Source: Streptomyces sp. CC53
GTDB lineage: Bacteria; Actinomycetota; Actinomycetes; Streptomycetales; Streptomycetaceae
NCBI RefSeq assembly: GCF_001865245.1
Contig: NZ_MKXB01000220.1
Span: 1-64,000, forward strand
DNA length: 64,000 bases
Direction: 5' to 3'
Shown here: positions 4,911-10,444 of the stretch, one piece after another
Layout of the letters: the number at the start of each line of letters is the position of its first letter
How positions within the stretch are numbered: the first letter of the stretch is position 1
Program-made: the position numbers and the translations under genes
The notes under the pieces: model-generated
Databases searched by the model: none
Seen by the model: the letters and a program-made list of their open reading frames with translations, nothing else
Told to the model about the DNA's origin: nothing

Positions 4911-6887
4911 GTGTCAGACGTCCGTGTGATCATCCAACGCGATTCCGAGCGGGAAGAGCGCGTGGTGACGACGGGCACTACGGCCGCCGACCTCTTCCCC
5001 GGCGAGCGCACCGTCGTCGCGGCCCGCGTGGACGGCGAGCTGAAGGACCTCGCGTACGAGCTGAAGGACGGCGAGACCGTCGAGGCCGTCGGGATCTCCT
5101 CCGAGGACGGCCTCGCCATCCTGCGCCACTCCACCGCGCACGTCATGGCCCAGGCCGTCCAGGAGCTCTTCCCCGAGGCCAAGCTGGGTATCGGCCCGCC
5201 GGTCAAGGACGGCTTCTACTACGACTTCGACGTCGAGAAGCCGTTCACGCCCGAGGACCTCAAGGCCATCGAGAAGAAGATGCAGGAGATCCAGAAGCGG
5301 GGCCAGCGCTTCTCCCGCCGCGTCGTCACCGACGAGGCCGCCCGCGAGGAACTGGCCGGCGAGCCGTACAAGCTGGAGCTCATCGGTCTCAAGGGCTCCG
5401 CCTCCAGCGAGGACGGCGCGGACGTCGAGGTGGGCGCCGGCGAGCTGACCATCTACGACAACCTGGACCCGAAGACCGGCGACCTGTGCTGGAAGGACCT
5501 GTGCAGGGGCCCGCACCTGCCCACCACCAGGAACATCCCGGCGTTCAAGCTCATGCGGAACGCCGCCGCCTACTGGCGCGGCAGCGAGAAGAACCCCATG
5601 CTCCAGCGGATCTACGGCACCGCCTGGCCGTCCAAGGACGAGCTGAAGGCGTACCTGGACTTCCTCGCCGAGGCCGAGAAGCGCGACCACCGCAAGCTCG
5701 GCAGCGAGCTGGACCTCTTCTCCATCCCGGAGCAGATCGGCTCCGGCCTCGCGGTCTTCCACCCGCGCGGCGGCATCATCCGCCGCGTCATGGAGGACTA
5801 CTCGCGCCGCCGGCACGAGGAGGAGGGGTACGAGTTCGTCTACACCCCGCACGCGACCAAGGGGAAGCTCTTCGAGACCTCGGGTCACCTGGACTGGTAC
5901 GCCGACGGCATGTACCCGCCCATGCAGCTCGACGAGGGCGTGGACTACTACCTCAAGCCCATGAACTGCCCCATGCACAACCTGGTCTTCGACGCGCGGG
6001 GCCGCTCGTACCGCGAGCTGCCCCTGAGGCTGTTCGAGTTCGGGACGGTGTACCGGTACGAGAAGTCGGGCGTCGTGCACGGTCTGACCCGCGCCCGCGG
6101 CTTCACACAGGACGACGCGCACATCTACTGCACCCGCGAGCAGATGGCCGAGGAGCTCGACAGGACGCTGACCTTCGTCCTGAACCTGCTGCGGGACTAC
6201 GGTCTGACCGACTTCTACCTGGAGCTGTCGACCAAGGACGAGACGAAGTTCGTCGGCAGCGACGAGGTCTGGGAAGAGGCCACCGAGACCCTGCGCAAGG
6301 TCGCCGAGAAGCAGGGCCTGCCCCTCACCCCCGACCCGGGTGGCGCGGCCTTCTACGGCCCGAAGATCTCCGTCCAGGCGCGGGACGCCATCGGCCGCAC
6401 CTGGCAGATGTCGACCATCCAGCTCGACTTCAACCTGCCGGAGCGTTTCCATCTGGAGTACACGGCGGCCGACGGCACCAAACAGCGCCCGGTCATGATC
6501 CACCGTGCGCTGTTCGGCTCCATCGAGCGGTTCTTCGCCGTGCTGCTGGAGCACTACGCGGGCGCCATGCCCCCGTGGCTGGCCCCGGTCCAGGCGGTCG
6601 GCATCCCGGTCGGCGACGCGCACGTCGCATACCTCCAGGAGTTCGCCGCCGAGGCTAAGCGGAAGGGCCTGCGGGTCGAGGTGGACGCCTCGTCGGACCG
6701 GATGCAGAAGAAGATCCGCAATCAGCAGAAGCAGAAGGTCCCGTTCATGATCATCGTCGGCGACGACGACATGAGCGCGGGCACGGTCTCCTTCCGCTAC
6801 CGCGACGGTTCGCAGAAGAACGGCATTCCGCGTGACCTCGCGCTGCAGGAGCTCGTCGACGCTGTCGAGCGCCGCATTCAGGTGTGA
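4911..6887 (+). CDS. thrS: Threonine--tRNA ligase
   Basis: ThrRS charges tRNA-Thr with threonine in the cytoplasm. The 658-residue length is standard. Domains: TGS (about 1-62), the editing/SAD domain with [10 protein letters not shown] (about 73-82) and '[10 protein letters not shown]' (about 188-197), the class II catalytic core, and the anticodon-binding domain (about 560-658). Catalytic zinc ligands lie in MNCPMH (about 351-356), '[11 protein letters not shown]' (about 398-408) and 'MIHRALFGS' (about 529-537). GTG 4911 is preferred because AGGAGA lies 6 bases upstream and the TGS domain begins there; an upstream in-frame ATG (4845) lacks one. TACCAT at 4841-4846 could be a -10 element. 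No T-box leader is visible. A HIT gene follows after a hairpin, as in other actinobacteria. Confidence 0.97.
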
Positions 6888-6975
6888 CGCTGTCCCCGTG
6901 TGAGCGGGGGTGATCCCGGCCCGGAGAAGGCCGTCGGGTGGGACGCAGTCCGGTCCCCTCACACGCGGGGGTCGT

Positions 6976-7006
6976 AGGGGGCGGTACCCGGCCGGGTACC
7001 GCCCCT
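6976..7006 (+). terminator. Hairpin terminator after thrS
   Basis: GGGGCGGTACCCG pairs with CGGGTACCGCCCC around a 2-base loop, about 90 bp after the thrS stop and 30 bp before the HIT gene. It separates the two transcription units or attenuates read-through. Confidence 0.6.
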
Positions 7007-7035
7007 CGGCGCATCCGCCGTCCCCGTGAGCCCAT

Positions 7036-7596
7036 ATGCTGATCCGCATGACGAATGAGCCGGAGCAGCAGATCGGAGTGGGGACGCCGGACGCGTTCCA
7101 GCGCCTGTGGACGCCCCACCGGATGGCCTACATCCAGGGCGAGAACAAGCCCACCGGCTCGGGGGCCGACGACGGCTGCCCGTTCTGCTCGATCCCGGCC
7201 AAGTCCGACGAGGACGGTCTGATCGTCGCCCGCGGCGAGAGCGTCTACGCGGTGCTGAACCTGTACCCGTACAACGGCGGGCACCTCATGATCGTCCCGT
7301 TCCGGCACGTCGCCGACTACACGGAGCTCGACGGGCCCGAGACCGCCGAGCTGGCCGAGTTCACCAAGCGGGCCATGAAGGCGCTGCGCGCCGCGTCCGG
7401 CGCGCACGGCTTCAACCTCGGGATGAACCAGGGAGACGCGGCCGGCGCCGGCATCGCCGCCCACCTCCACCAGCACATCGTCCCCCGCTGGGGCGGCGAC
7501 ACCAACTTCATGCCCGTCACCGCCCACACCAAGGTCCTGCCCCAGCTCCTCGCCGACACCCGGCGCATGCTCGCGGAGGCGTGGCCCGCCGTCTAG
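7036..7596 (+). CDS. HIT-family protein, Ap4A phosphorylase-like (Rv2613c type)
   Basis: A 186-residue histidine-triad protein. 'CPFC' near residue 49 is the zinc knuckle seen in this subgroup, and HLHQHIV near residue 141 is the histidine triad whose central His forms the nucleotidyl intermediate. In mycobacteria the equivalent gene beside thrS (Rv2613c) encodes a diadenosine tetraphosphate phosphorylase. Aminoacyl-tRNA synthetases make Ap4A, so the thrS neighbourhood is functionally sensible. Start: ATG 7036 or ATG 7048, neither with a strong ribosome-binding site, and 7048 is an equally good choice. The stop codon TAG (7594-7596) is part of the CTAG where an IS630-type element has inserted, so the reading frame is intact but the downstream neighbourhood is interrupted. 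Confidence 0.9.
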   Translation: MLIRMTNEPEQQIGVGTPDAFQRLWTPHRMAYIQGENKPTGSGADDGCPFCSIPAKSDEDGLIVARGESVYAVLNLYPYNGGHLMIVPFRHVADYTELDGPETAELAEFTKRAMKALRAASGAHGFNLGMNQGDAAGAGIAAHLHQHIVPRWGGDTNFMPVTAHTKVLPQLLADTRRMLAEAWPAV

Positions 7597-7621
7597 TGCT
7601 GTGACCGCATAGGTTCACCGG
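7593..7621 (+). repeat. Left terminal inverted repeat of the IS630-type element (with CTAG target)
   Basis: Reads CTAGTGCTGTGAC, then seven variable bases, then GTTCACCGG. Compared with the reverse complement of the right end, 24 of 29 positions match. The first four bases are the target CTAG, of which TAG is the stop codon of the HIT gene. Confidence 0.85.
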
Positions 7622-7763
7622 CTTGGCGATGCCGGCGCGCGAAACGGTGGGGGTTCCCGCCCCGTGGGATGAGTCGAGGGCCGTGAGGGGCGAGCGAAAC
7701 CGGTTGCGGGTGCGGACCGGTGCCTGAGAGCGTGTGGGTTCCCGCAACTGCGACGAGGCTTGG

Positions 7764-8231
7764 ATGACGATCTACTTCTACGGCGCGGACGAAGTCCCCT
7801 ACGGCTGCTTCTCCAACTTCTCTGCGCACGACCTGGAACTCGATGGGCACATGTGGCCGACCTCGGAGCACTACTTCCAGGCCCAGAAGTTCATCGGCAC
7901 CCGTCATGCCGATCTCATCCGTCGGGCTCGCACGCCGCTGCGTGCCGCCGAGTTGGGCCGGGACTCTTCCAGGCCGTTGCGGCGGGACTGGGAGCGTGTC
8001 AAGGACGACGTGATGCGCCGTGCCGTGGCGGCCAAGTTCCGAGCGCATGCGGACATCCGCGGCATCCTGTTGTCCACCGCCGACGAGGAGATCGTCGAGG
8101 ACACCGGCACCGACCACTACTGGGGCCGCGGCAGGACCGGGACCGGCAAGAACATGCTGGGCCGGATCCTGATGCGCACCCGCAATCAACTCCGCGCCGA
8201 AGCCGACGGAGGTCACGGTCACTTCGGGTAG
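7764..8231 (+). CDS. NADAR domain protein (YbiA/RibX-like), passenger gene of the IS element
   Basis: A 155-residue protein with the full NADAR signature in order: GCFSNFSAHDLELDG (about 13-27), WPTSEHYFQAQKF (about 31-43), 'AAELGR', 'DWERVKDDVMRRAVAAKF', and 'WGRGRTGTGKNMLGRILM' near the C-terminus. NADAR proteins act on ADP-ribose or riboflavin-pathway intermediates. Some remove ADP-ribose from guanine in DNA, and the domain occurs in anti-phage and toxin-antitoxin settings, but the substrate here cannot be deduced. ATG 7764 was chosen because GAGG lies 5 bases upstream; an in-frame GTG at 7734 would add ten residues. Codon use is less G/C-biased than in neighbours (TCT, GAT, GAA appear), consistent with recent arrival. 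It lies wholly inside the inverted repeats. Confidence 0.85.
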   Translation: MTIYFYGADEVPYGCFSNFSAHDLELDGHMWPTSEHYFQAQKFIGTRHADLIRRARTPLRAAELGRDSSRPLRRDWERVKDDVMRRAVAAKFRAHADIRGILLSTADEEIVEDTGTDHYWGRGRTGTGKNMLGRILMRTRNQLRAEADGGHGHFG

Positions 8232-8281
8232 CGCACTCGGGCCGTGCTGCCCATGCCGGGGCCCGGGGACGGGCGGGGCGG

Positions 8282-8734
8282 TCAGGCTGCAGCGGCGCGG
8301 GAGCGTCCGCCCCAGCGGATGCCCTTCTCGCTCCGGATGCGGGCGCGTTCGCAGCGCTGGGCGGCGAGCACGTCCGGGTGGCGGGCGTTGGCGTTGCGCC
8401 AGCGCAGTGTGAGCAGGCGGGGACGGCCTCCCGCCCACCGAGGGTCCAGGCAGGCCAGGCCGATCTCGTTGAACCGGTGGATCACATCCCGCACCGTGTC
8501 CTCGTCCGCCTGCACGAGCCGGGCGATCACCGGCACCCGGTTGCCACCGGCCGACGCGAGCAGCATCATTGCCCGCCGGTAGCGCACTGTGTTCGCGCTA
8601 CCCCGACGCACGATCCGCTGTAACTGCTGACCTTCATGATCGGTGAGATTGCGGATCCTGACCGGCTCTGCCGTGGCGCCCTCCGAGCTGCACGTCTCGC
8701 GACATCCAACCGGCCGAGGGCGCGCCGGCGCCAC
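8282..8734 (-). pseudogene. IS630-family transposase with in-frame deletion of the DDE core
   Basis: The frame encodes about 150 residues. The first part (RNLTDHEGQQLQRIVRRGS, then YRRAMMLLASAGGNRVPVIA, ending near WAGGRPRLL) is the helix-turn-helix N-terminus of Streptomyces IS630 transposases. After position ~8410 it jumps directly to RWRNANARHPDVLAAQR and 'ARIRSEKGIRWGGR', which I recognise as the usual C-terminal tail of the same family. The roughly 200 residues between, which hold the DDE catalytic triad, are absent, so the protein could at most bind ends. The only upstream start is GTG 8734 inside the inverted repeat. The codon where relatives usually begin, just before 'EPVR', is not a start here. 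Confidence 0.8.
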
Positions 8735-8735
8735 C

Positions 8736-8764
8736 CCGGTGAACGTTGTCAGTCACAGCACTAG
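8736..8764 (-). repeat. Right terminal inverted repeat of the IS630-type element (with CTAG target)
   Basis: On the minus strand it reads CTAGTGCTGTGAC, seven variable bases, GTTCACCGG, mirroring the left end. Similarity continues a few bases inward (TGGCG). The transposase frame begins just inside it. Confidence 0.85.
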
Positions 8765-8803
8765 GCCCGGCCCCCGGCCGCGTCGGTCCTCGACCCCCCG
8801 GCC

Positions 8804-10444
8804 TCACGCGTCGTACACGTCGGCCTTCTTCGGGGCCGGGTCCGCGGAGAAGCTGCTGCCCGCCATCGAGCTGGTGTCCACGCCGTGCTCCTCCAGCATC
8901 TTCACGGTCGCCGCGTGGACCGCGCGCATCACCGGAGTCGCCGCGCGGATGGCGTCGTCGGCCATGAACCGGTGCTTCCACGGGGCTTCCGCCCACACGT
9001 GGCGCAGACCGAAGGGCTCGGGCAGCACCAGCTTCCCGCCGAGGAAGTCCAGGACCGGCGGGAACCACGTCAGGGGGGCGCGCACCGCCAGCCGGACGAC
9101 CTCGTTCGTCTCGATCAGGGGGAGCTTGACCTCCTTGGTCTCCCAGAACCGGAACGTCTTCGGGACGGACTTCGACCTGCCCGCCGGCTTGTCGAAGAAG
9201 AGCCCGTGGACGGGACCGAGGGCGTGGCCGGAGACCTCGATGCGGAGGGTGTGCAGCAGCGCCGTGACGGTGACCAGCATCGTCAGGACGAGCTGGCCGT
9301 CCCATAGGACGAACTGGACGCCCAGATAGTGGCGGTTGCCCTTGCCGAACTGGTTCTCGTTGCAGACCCGCTGGATCTCGTGCGGTTTGACCTGGAAGGC
9401 GACGACGTCCTCGCCGTCGGGCCGGGACACCGCCTTCGCCCCGTCGCCCACGGGGACCACGATCCAGTGGTTGACCGAAGGGACCGGGAAGCCGCTCTTG
9501 AGCGAGCCGCGTTCCAGGAGCTTCAGCTGGTCGTGGATGGGGCGTATGACGTCCCAGGTGCGGAAGGCGTGGATCTCCTTGCCGTCGCGGGGCTTCAGTT
9601 CCTCCGCGAGGTGCCAGCCGCCCCAGCGGGTGCCCATGCCGAGTATGCCCCGGGGGCCGGCGTAGAAGACGACGTTGGAGCGCTGCTCCGCGGTGAGCTT
9701 CTCCAGGTTCTGGCGGAGCTCCTCGGCAGCCGTCTCGCCGGGGTTGCGGGGCACCGCCTCGGGGATCTTCGCGGCGACGCCGCCGCCGCTGAGGAGGCCG
9801 TCCCAGCGGGCGCGCAGGTCCTTCGCGGTCTTCTCGCAGACGTGCTTCGCGAGGTACCAGCCGATCACCGGGGCGATGACCATGGCGCGCACGTACAGCG
9901 ACCAGAAGCCGGTGACGGGGAGCTTGACCAGGACGAGCACGGCCAGGATCCCGGCGCCGATCAGGAGGGCGGTGCTGAGGGCCCCGGCCTTCTTGCCGTC
10001 CGCGCCGGACATGCTGCGGCGGAGCTGGAAGACGACCAGCCACAGCAGGAGCCCGGGGAGGAAGGCGACGCCGCACAGCAGGGTGATGAGGGTGAGGCGG
10101 GTGTCGCGCTGCTTGCGGATGCGGTTCGCGGCCAGGCAGTGCTCGACGACGGGCTGCGGCTCGGTGCCGAAGGACTGGATGACGGGTGCGCGGCCGCCGC
10201 CGAGCATGCGCACGGTCACGGCGCGGCAGAACGCCTCGCCGAGGTTGGGTTCGAAGAGGCTGAACTTGCCCTTCTTGACGGTGGATTCGTACCAGTCGTT
10301 GTTGGCCTTGAGGATGTCCTCGACCGGGCTGTCGCGGTAGGCGGCGGACGCCAGGGCGTTGGTGGCCACCGTCTGCGCTGCCGAGCCCTGGAGCGGGACC
10401 TGTGCCCCGGGGCCGAATCCGTCCATTGTCACTGCCGCCCCCAT
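8804..10444 (-). CDS. Conserved membrane protein of unknown function
   Basis: A 546-residue protein with hydrophobic segments at about 115-140 (LITLLCGVAFLPGLLLWLVV), 152-178 (TALLIGAGILAVLVLVKL) and 181-200. A large soluble C-terminal half follows, containing 'TRWGGWHLAEELKPRDGKEI' and 'VQFVLWDGQLVLTMLVTV'. No known catalytic motif was recognised. The N-terminal 90 residues look cytoplasmic and helical. Start: ATG 10444 or ATG 10426 (MDGFGPGAQ); neither has a clear ribosome-binding site, and further upstream the frame is low-quality. It lies downstream of the EF-G2 gene on the same strand but is separated by a strong hairpin, so it probably has its own promoter. Its 3' end lies 40 bp from the IS630 insertion. 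Confidence 0.75.
   Translation of the reverse strand: MGAAVTMDGFGPGAQVPLQGSAAQTVATNALASAAYRDSPVEDILKANNDWYESTVKKGKFSLFEPNLGEAFCRAVTVRMLGGGRAPVIQSFGTEPQPVVEHCLAANRIRKQRDTRLTLITLLCGVAFLPGLLLWLVVFQLRRSMSGADGKKAGALSTALLIGAGILAVLVLVKLPVTGFWSLYVRAMVIAPVIGWYLAKHVCEKTAKDLRARWDGLLSGGGVAAKIPEAVPRNPGETAAEELRQNLEKLTAEQRSNVVFYAGPRGILGMGTRWGGWHLAEELKPRDGKEIHAFRTWDVIRPIHDQLKLLERGSLKSGFPVPSVNHWIVVPVGDGAKAVSRPDGEDVVAFQVKPHEIQRVCNENQFGKGNRHYLGVQFVLWDGQLVLTMLVTVTALLHTLRIEVSGHALGPVHGLFFDKPAGRSKSVPKTFRFWETKEVKLPLIETNEVVRLAVRAPLTWFPPVLDFLGGKLVLPEPFGLRHVWAEAPWKHRFMADDAIRAATPVMRAVHAATVKMLEEHGVDTSSMAGSSFSADPAPKKADVYDA

Follow-up and report, generated by a model that had tools for sequence, protein, structure and literature searches.

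Within the stretch of DNA analysed here (the window: 64,000 nucleotides, positions 1 to 64,000 of contig NZ_MKXB01000220.1 of Streptomyces sp. CC53) lies an IS630-type insertion sequence (IS) with paired ends, a NADAR gene and a defective transposase. It is very probably a non-autonomous copy of a transporter IS (tIS), whose relatives are built as inverted repeat (IR), cargo, transposase and IR, sit at TA targets, mostly within CTAG, and exchange the cargo held in a single slot. An IS with an unrelated passenger gene inside its ends is what the available portions of several papers call a tIS (PMC9330008, PMC8496243, PMC3129680, PMC12888890). This is a known kind of element; the subgroup described here is a tIS of the IS630 family, and the window copy represents a non-autonomous form derived from it.

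The element proper (7596-8761) is 1166 bp long. A first-pass annotation, made from the sequence alone, had placed it at 7593-8764; the element is there, with narrower borders, the two TA copies lying outside it. The paired inverted repeats noted at the time were recovered as 36-nt arms (7593-7628 and 8729-8764, flank included) that are 81% complementary and are the longest among 11 inverted pairs within 7300-9100. The TA duplication inside CTAG is present at both borders, the NADAR gene beside the left end is complete as had been claimed (Table 1), and NADAR and transposase remnant are convergent. Of the features expected of an IS630 element, the TA target duplication and the terminal inverted repeats are present in the window copy, and a transposase with a catalytic domain is absent.

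The obvious alternative is an ordinary IS630 copy beside a resident NADAR gene, with a left end that is a chance or unrelated repeat. NADAR genes without visible ends do exist, among them those of genome G309 (92.9% DNA identity) and locus L033 (90.5%). Against this stand the absence of end-like matches from all 1220 letter-shuffled stretches (0/1220) and the recurrence of the same ends around NADAR elsewhere, so that the ends cannot be ascribed to chance. In the loci of 11 relatives (from a set of 40), neither the element nor a NADAR gene is found within 90 bases 3' of the HIT-family gene that precedes the element in the window. Left end, NADAR, transposase and right end are also found as a set at unrelated sites, bordered on either side by CTAG: the complete copies in genome G267 and in Dactylosporangium fulvum already refute a resident NADAR, which leaves this alternative scarcely credible. 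Those complete copies, with both ends, likewise rule out the element as an accident of a single locus.

The G267 copy came from a DNA search of 392 Streptomyces genomes, where, among the matches listed, NADAR-side and transposase-side matches are adjacent in G267, and the NADAR part runs into a transposase tail in G250. The D. fulvum copy came from a protein-based scan of genome contigs, in which 80 of 263 loci were kept. In G267 (locus L113) the order is IR, NADAR, full-length transposase frame and IR, over 1863 bp, with CTAG on both sides; in D. fulvum (L039) a complete NADAR element of 1861 bp has both ends and CTAG flanks, its transposase match being split into three pieces. They agree at 90.2% of 1865 aligned columns, and their flanks do not match. 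The first-pass annotation had advised looking for copies with both ends and NADAR at unrelated sites, and for an intact element with the same ends; G267 and D. fulvum supply the former and the full-length transposase frame of G267 the latter, and its contrary case, ends never accompanied by NADAR and NADAR present at this locus alone without the repeats, or no second site at all, is contradicted by these two genomes.

Less complete copies form a series below these. A left end precedes NADAR, by eye, in G304 (L011; seen in the scan too), G375 (L012) and G221 (L009), and is degraded in L041; transposase pieces lie 3' of NADAR in G304, in G375 (a weak match, 9e-4) and in G250 (a tail-only remnant). 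Altogether, 6 of the 16 NADAR-side genomes among the matches listed have an end or a transposase piece (the window's own, G267, G250, G304, G375 and G221). A plasmid of Streptomyces sp. NBC_01334 shares its left flank with G375, and plasmid NZ_CP130719.1 holds a partial NADAR copy with a left end (by eye) and a transposase tail. No whole NADAR element was found on plasmids: 145 plasmid records match the IS630 part, and none covers 80% of the G267 element. A phylum-wide draw of 396 genomes yielded no NADAR element apart from that of the window, and in a class-wide draw of 394 the NADAR matches that reach the transposase side are those of the window and the already known G375, with G360, G222 and G910 matching without it. 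Separately, G095:C14:105583-105701 is a 79% match to the D. fulvum left end and leader (query 1-117), with no adjoining NADAR match.

Table 1. Features of the NADAR-bearing element in the window
Feature	Position	Strand	Basis or remark
Left TA target duplication copy	7594..7595		Sequence; inside CTAG; shared with stop codon of upstream HIT gene
Left terminal inverted repeat	7596..7628	+	Arm comparison; also adjoins NADAR in L113 and L039
Leader with conserved promoter-like stretch, 5' of NADAR	7661..7763	+	Putative promoter role
NADAR gene, 155 aa, YbiA-type, intact	7764..8231	+	Pfam PF08719, TIGR02464
Transposase remnant: N-terminal helix-turn-helix part and C-terminal tail fused in frame	8282..8734	-	Junction 8407/8408
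Right terminal inverted repeat	8729..8761	-	Arm comparison
Right TA target duplication copy	8762..8763		Sequence; inside CTAG

The HIT-family gene (7036-7596, Pfam) was entered exactly at its stop codon; without the element the flanks read CCGTC-TA-GGCC, and the stop of the HIT gene is still TAG.

The transposase had been described as an N-terminal DNA-binding part fused in frame to a C-terminal tail, and alignment bears this out: read in a single frame, the minus-strand remnant covers residues 15-108 of the G267 transposase and continues at residues 352-387. Judged from best-match positions, the gap amounts to 729 nt relative to L165, L113 and L171, and to 730 relative to L177; the in-frame loss is 243 codons. 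Against the IS630 model NF033545 (cut-off 100 bits) the remnant scores 26.6 bits and the G267 transposase 156.9. The catalytic aspartates and glutamate expected of an IS630 transposase should presumably lie in the missing part. Since the transposase core is missing, the window copy counts as derived from an IS630 element and is not autonomous: it is not capable of moving itself. The earlier proposal of a NADAR gene in a non-autonomous element thus stands in that NADAR does travel in an IS630 element, with the correction that the core loss is not shared by G267, whose transposase frame is full-length.

The window's outcome is repeated with a different cargo on plasmids of S. globisporus, for which at least five records with vph are among the matches listed. 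The two that were read (CP109147.1 and C-1027 SGLP1; L280 and L281) hold a unit of 1370-1376 bp with both ends, CTAG and vph, the viomycin phosphotransferase gene, and the transposase is reduced to residues 7-85 in both, with residues 361-387 additionally present in C-1027. This suggests that loss of the core, with ends and cargo retained, recurs.

The annotation's premise that ordinary IS630 elements carry the transposase only does not hold among the copies sampled from the subgroup: cargo is present in 47 of 80, in a sample that favours window-like ones. Seventy-eight of these loci came from the listed transposase-side matches and were picked for likeness to the window transposase and right end, not for cargo; L113 and L039 were added via NADAR, and leaving them out gives 45/78. 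In the cargo-bearing loci 289-1433 nt separate the transposase stop from the left end. Fourteen copies are cargo-free, with a gap of 3-8 nt (both ends were found in 9 of them, at lengths of 1196-1240 bp), and 19 are undecided (13 with no left end found, 6 short of the transposase end). Among the cargo-bearing elements, CTAG flanks the left side in 39/47 and the right in 38/47.

The slot holds one small gene, or two in one case, and the 47 cargoes fall into 30 clusters without mutual DNA likeness, although a protein family may still be common to some. Assigned by Pfam and NCBIfam, they include a chloramphenicol phosphotransferase (L172 in G243; 325 bits, cut-off 250), a viomycin phosphotransferase (L186, G195:C42:6600-9500; 439 bits, cut-off 400), another APH-family kinase (L242), five clusters of GNAT acetyltransferases (L190, L240, L256, L257, L263), a D-Ala-D-Ala dipeptidase-family enzyme under the VanX model cut-off (L193), an inositol-phosphatase-family enzyme (L165), the immunity protein Imm53 (L253), DUF6368 (L255), an AHSA1 gene with an ArsR-type regulator (L199), methyltransferases, alpha/beta hydrolases, an S1-domain protein, a SnoaL-like protein (below cut-off) and NADAR. 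No Pfam or NCBIfam family was found for the cargo of L183, L188, L192, L194 and L244; that of L239 and L243 (unk239) was outside the family scan. The longest cargo, L261/L216 in G218, spans 1433 nt from stop to left end and is flanked by ATAG instead of CTAG. In a class-wide set (L210-L233; 24 loci, 4 of them already among the 80), the 12 copies with cargo all belong by kinship to the window's genus, the 6 without cargo all to other families, and 6 are undecided. Cargo therefore looks, from this distribution of sequences, to be chiefly a feature of Streptomyces, D. fulvum being the exception.

Movement of whole units is visible in four genomes (G307, G323, G172 and G369), each of which has two whole elements that agree at 98.7-100% of 1741-1970 aligned columns, without any match between their flanks; in G369 the duplicated element is the one with chloramphenicol phosphotransferase (L177, L237). 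For the subgroup, a passenger that moves together with the ends, as expected of a transporter IS, is thus seen in these duplicates and in NADAR at two unrelated sites. The chloramphenicol phosphotransferase copy of G369 recurs without a difference over 2001 bp at positions 5476-7476 of NZ_CP109361.1, with 0 and 1 end mismatches and CTAG, and NZ_CP043960.1 (S. tendae) has a DUF6368 element identical to that of G027 over 2041 bp; both records may stem from strains already represented by the G genomes and do not count as independent proof. The chloramphenicol phosphotransferase gene of NZ_CP109361.1 is absent from the PLSDB table. Cargo ORFs (open reading frames) are also duplicated within G172 and G307 (L183, L184, L234, L271; L188, L236), those of L183 and L188 having no Pfam family.

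A transposase backbone forming one clade was rejected by the approximately unbiased (AU) test for SnoaL-like cargo (p 5e-5), unk239 (2e-5) and unk192 (1e-6). In these cases the same cargo sits on different transposase backbones, and cargo has been exchanged between them.

How cargo enters the slot may be read from the region just past the transposase stop. Cargo-free copies have their left end 3-8 nt past the stop, and cargo copies may retain a damaged end there. Scored against 962 control windows taken from within cargo, such an inner-end relic lies above the 99th percentile in 14 of 47 rows (about 0.5 expected). The rows comprise the window and 46 cargo rows with 290 nt or more, and those that are related are not independent; the 14 represent 10 of 30 cargo clusters and are clearest in L253 and the DUF6368 group. 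A damaged copy of the left end right after the transposase stop is present in L253, L255, L266, L270, L249, L165, L242 and L257.

We infer the capture route, the mobility in trans and the NADAR role as follows for the first two, the third being taken up below. Transposition probably used an outer copy of the end, beyond a neighbouring gene, which would thereby be enclosed as cargo; the old inner end by the transposase stop would then decay. The window copy has since lost its 243 transposase codons, and would move only with a related transposase acting on its ends. Outer-end use and inner-end decay fit the relic pattern, which says nothing about a second IS copy as the source of the outer end. 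The cargo may instead derive from collapsed composite transposons, two IS copies around a gene with one reduced to its end, which we rate only just short of an even chance: the relic beside the stop, in the rows and clusters just given, is what such a collapse would leave, but direct use of a lone outer end would produce an identical one.

The history of the NADAR cargo itself appears to be split. In a 40-row NADAR tree the window stands apart from the G267 group and joins G309 (97/87), with L033 and G250 near it. Element-borne NADARs as one group were rejected for two groupings, including window and G250 with the G267 group, these groupings having been named after inspection of the tree; window and G250 alone were not rejected (p 0.33). 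The window transposase clusters with a phosphatase-carrying element (99/90), its row being only 39% filled. Given the split of the NADAR tree and this grouping of the transposase, NADAR would have entered the transposon subgroup at least twice, or have been swapped between backbones. A single capture in an ancestral element, with all close actinobacterial NADARs descending from it and those lacking ends being element copies that lost them, would account for NADAR lying in the identical slot, convergent to the transposase, in the window as well as in G267 and D. fulvum, and for the graded series from complete to partial copies; neither tree result excludes swapping of cargo after one capture. 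The post hoc rejection of the combined NADAR clade and the phosphatase-element grouping of the window transposase both tell against it, and we consider it unlikely.

Several results weigh against the transporter IS as set out above. The window genome has 1 copy of the element, so that only a single site is known for the window copy, and this draft genome yielded no intact transposase of the subgroup, which leaves mobility in trans unproven. In 10 of the 16 listed NADAR genomes the examined stretch has neither end nor transposase piece (in G139 it meets a contig edge); from these genomes it follows that NADAR also exists off the element. Thirty-three of the 47 rows, the window (score 12) among them, have no inner-end relic. 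For the S1 cargo a one-clade backbone was not rejected (p 0.19); the test separating the window backbone from that of G267 and D. fulvum is weak (p 0.036, with 39% of columns filled), and the transposases of G267 and D. fulvum, which are not sisters on the tree, were not rejected as a joint clade (p 0.43).

The cargo of the window copy is a YbiA-type NADAR by several measures: Pfam PF08719 matches at 7.6e-40 (query from codon 2, 7767), TIGR02464 at 150.5 bits (cut-off 73.7), and YbiA (2b3w) by phmmer at 9.1e-48. The glutamate of SEHYF and the one before the YWG stretch align with YbiA, and the last-strand YbiA-family glutamate, whose role is treated in portions of PMC11125620 and PMC11543638, aligns with that of YbiA 2b3w and of 8bau. 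Values of dN/dS of 0.07-0.14 in 8 NADAR pairs, and of 0.09-0.14 in the window's four comparisons, indicate a gene under purifying selection. The leader is 88.7% identical in G309 over 106 nt, and a promoter-like stretch 5' of NADAR is conserved, by eye, with or without ends (L047, L049, L115, L033 and others). A second, more distant NADAR occurs in the window genome (L274, G000:C88:38249-38689; PF08719 175.9 bits).

What would such a gene do for its host? The first-pass annotation had suggested a possibly anti-phage function, and a mobile defence gene would agree with the account, in excerpts of PMC11125620, of NADARs as DarT1 antitoxins and of DarT2, and perhaps YarT, in phage defence; DS32_2, the anti-phage NADAR model of NCBIfam, also gives a weak match. 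That match, at 74.2 bits, is far under the cut-off of 240, and no DarT was found in 7/7 genomes searched, a set that does not include D. fulvum and a search that did not extend to other transferase families. With several other slot cargoes being resistance-type enzymes, an anti-phage role is improbable. DarT as the partner of the NADAR gene is ruled out by its absence from the 7 searched genomes.

Our preference, a tentative one drawn by analogy, is that the window NADAR, most likely a hydrolase of the YbiA type, may serve as portable self-protection against guanine ADP-ribosylation, in a slot rich in resistance-type genes. As far as the available text of PMC11125620 goes, NADAR/YbiA proteins assayed on a ScARP-modified guanosine substrate are hydrolytic, and C. 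crocatus YbiA reverses the guanosine ADP-ribosylation made by ScARP; at the level of cells there is specificity, in that E. coli YbiA fails to rescue from YarT (same portions of PMC11125620), so that caution is due in extending YbiA activity to the window NADAR. Detoxification of riboflavin intermediates would be the main alternative role.

Set beside known systems, the subgroup resembles described transporter ISs (IS1595/IS1, and tIS66 as exemplified by ISPa75 with fosZ, as excerpts of the literature present them) in having a passenger gene unrelated to transposition, and differs in its IS630 transposase, its TA target mostly in CTAG, its one slot past the transposase stop, and the 30 cargo clusters within a single sampled subgroup, where some cargo has passed from backbone to backbone. 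With the IS630 family it shares an NF033545 score above cut-off (G267 copy), the TA duplication and short inverted ends; it departs from that family in its cargo and, in the window copy, in the lack of a catalytic core, one survey giving IS630 elements a length of about 1250 bp and one or two ORFs (in the part of PMC11092175 available). Like miniature inverted-repeat transposable elements (MITEs) and mobile insertion cassettes (MICs), the window copy has retained ends and lost transposase function, and a cognate transposase can activate such structures that lack one of their own (PMC3129680, in part); unlike them, it retains a cargo gene that is complete and under selection, together with a fused remnant of the transposase. 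Its NADAR resembles E. coli YbiA and the C. crocatus YbiA of YarT-YbiA in model scores and aligned glutamates, but lies on a DNA transposon, in an element that holds no transferase gene. A YbiA-family NADAR within a transposable element is also reported for Ectocarpus Gypsy retrotransposons (portions of PMC12477816), whereas that of the window stands as a gene of its own within a bacterial DNA element. The literature matches listed, which do not cover ISfinder entries, include no cargo-bearing Streptomyces IS630 and no NADAR in a bacterial transposon.

Taken together, these results may describe an IS630 cassette system of Streptomyces, a joint reading we hold to be somewhat less probable than its contrary: a fixed slot would repeatedly capture and exchange small genes for resistance, detoxification and immunity in units of about 1.5-2.2 kb, crippled copies would fix their cargo in place, and NADAR would be a portable shield against DNA-guanine ADP-ribosylation, a chemistry secreted by streptomycetes (ScARP). 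The same-genome duplicates make movement of the element directly testable, and the company NADAR keeps as cargo suggests a role in self-protection. Antibiotic producers are widely presumed to be a source of resistance genes. The subgroup, with chloramphenicol and viomycin phosphotransferases, a D-Ala-D-Ala dipeptidase-family enzyme, acetyltransferases and NADAR in its slot, would be a concrete vehicle by which single genes may leave producer genomes.
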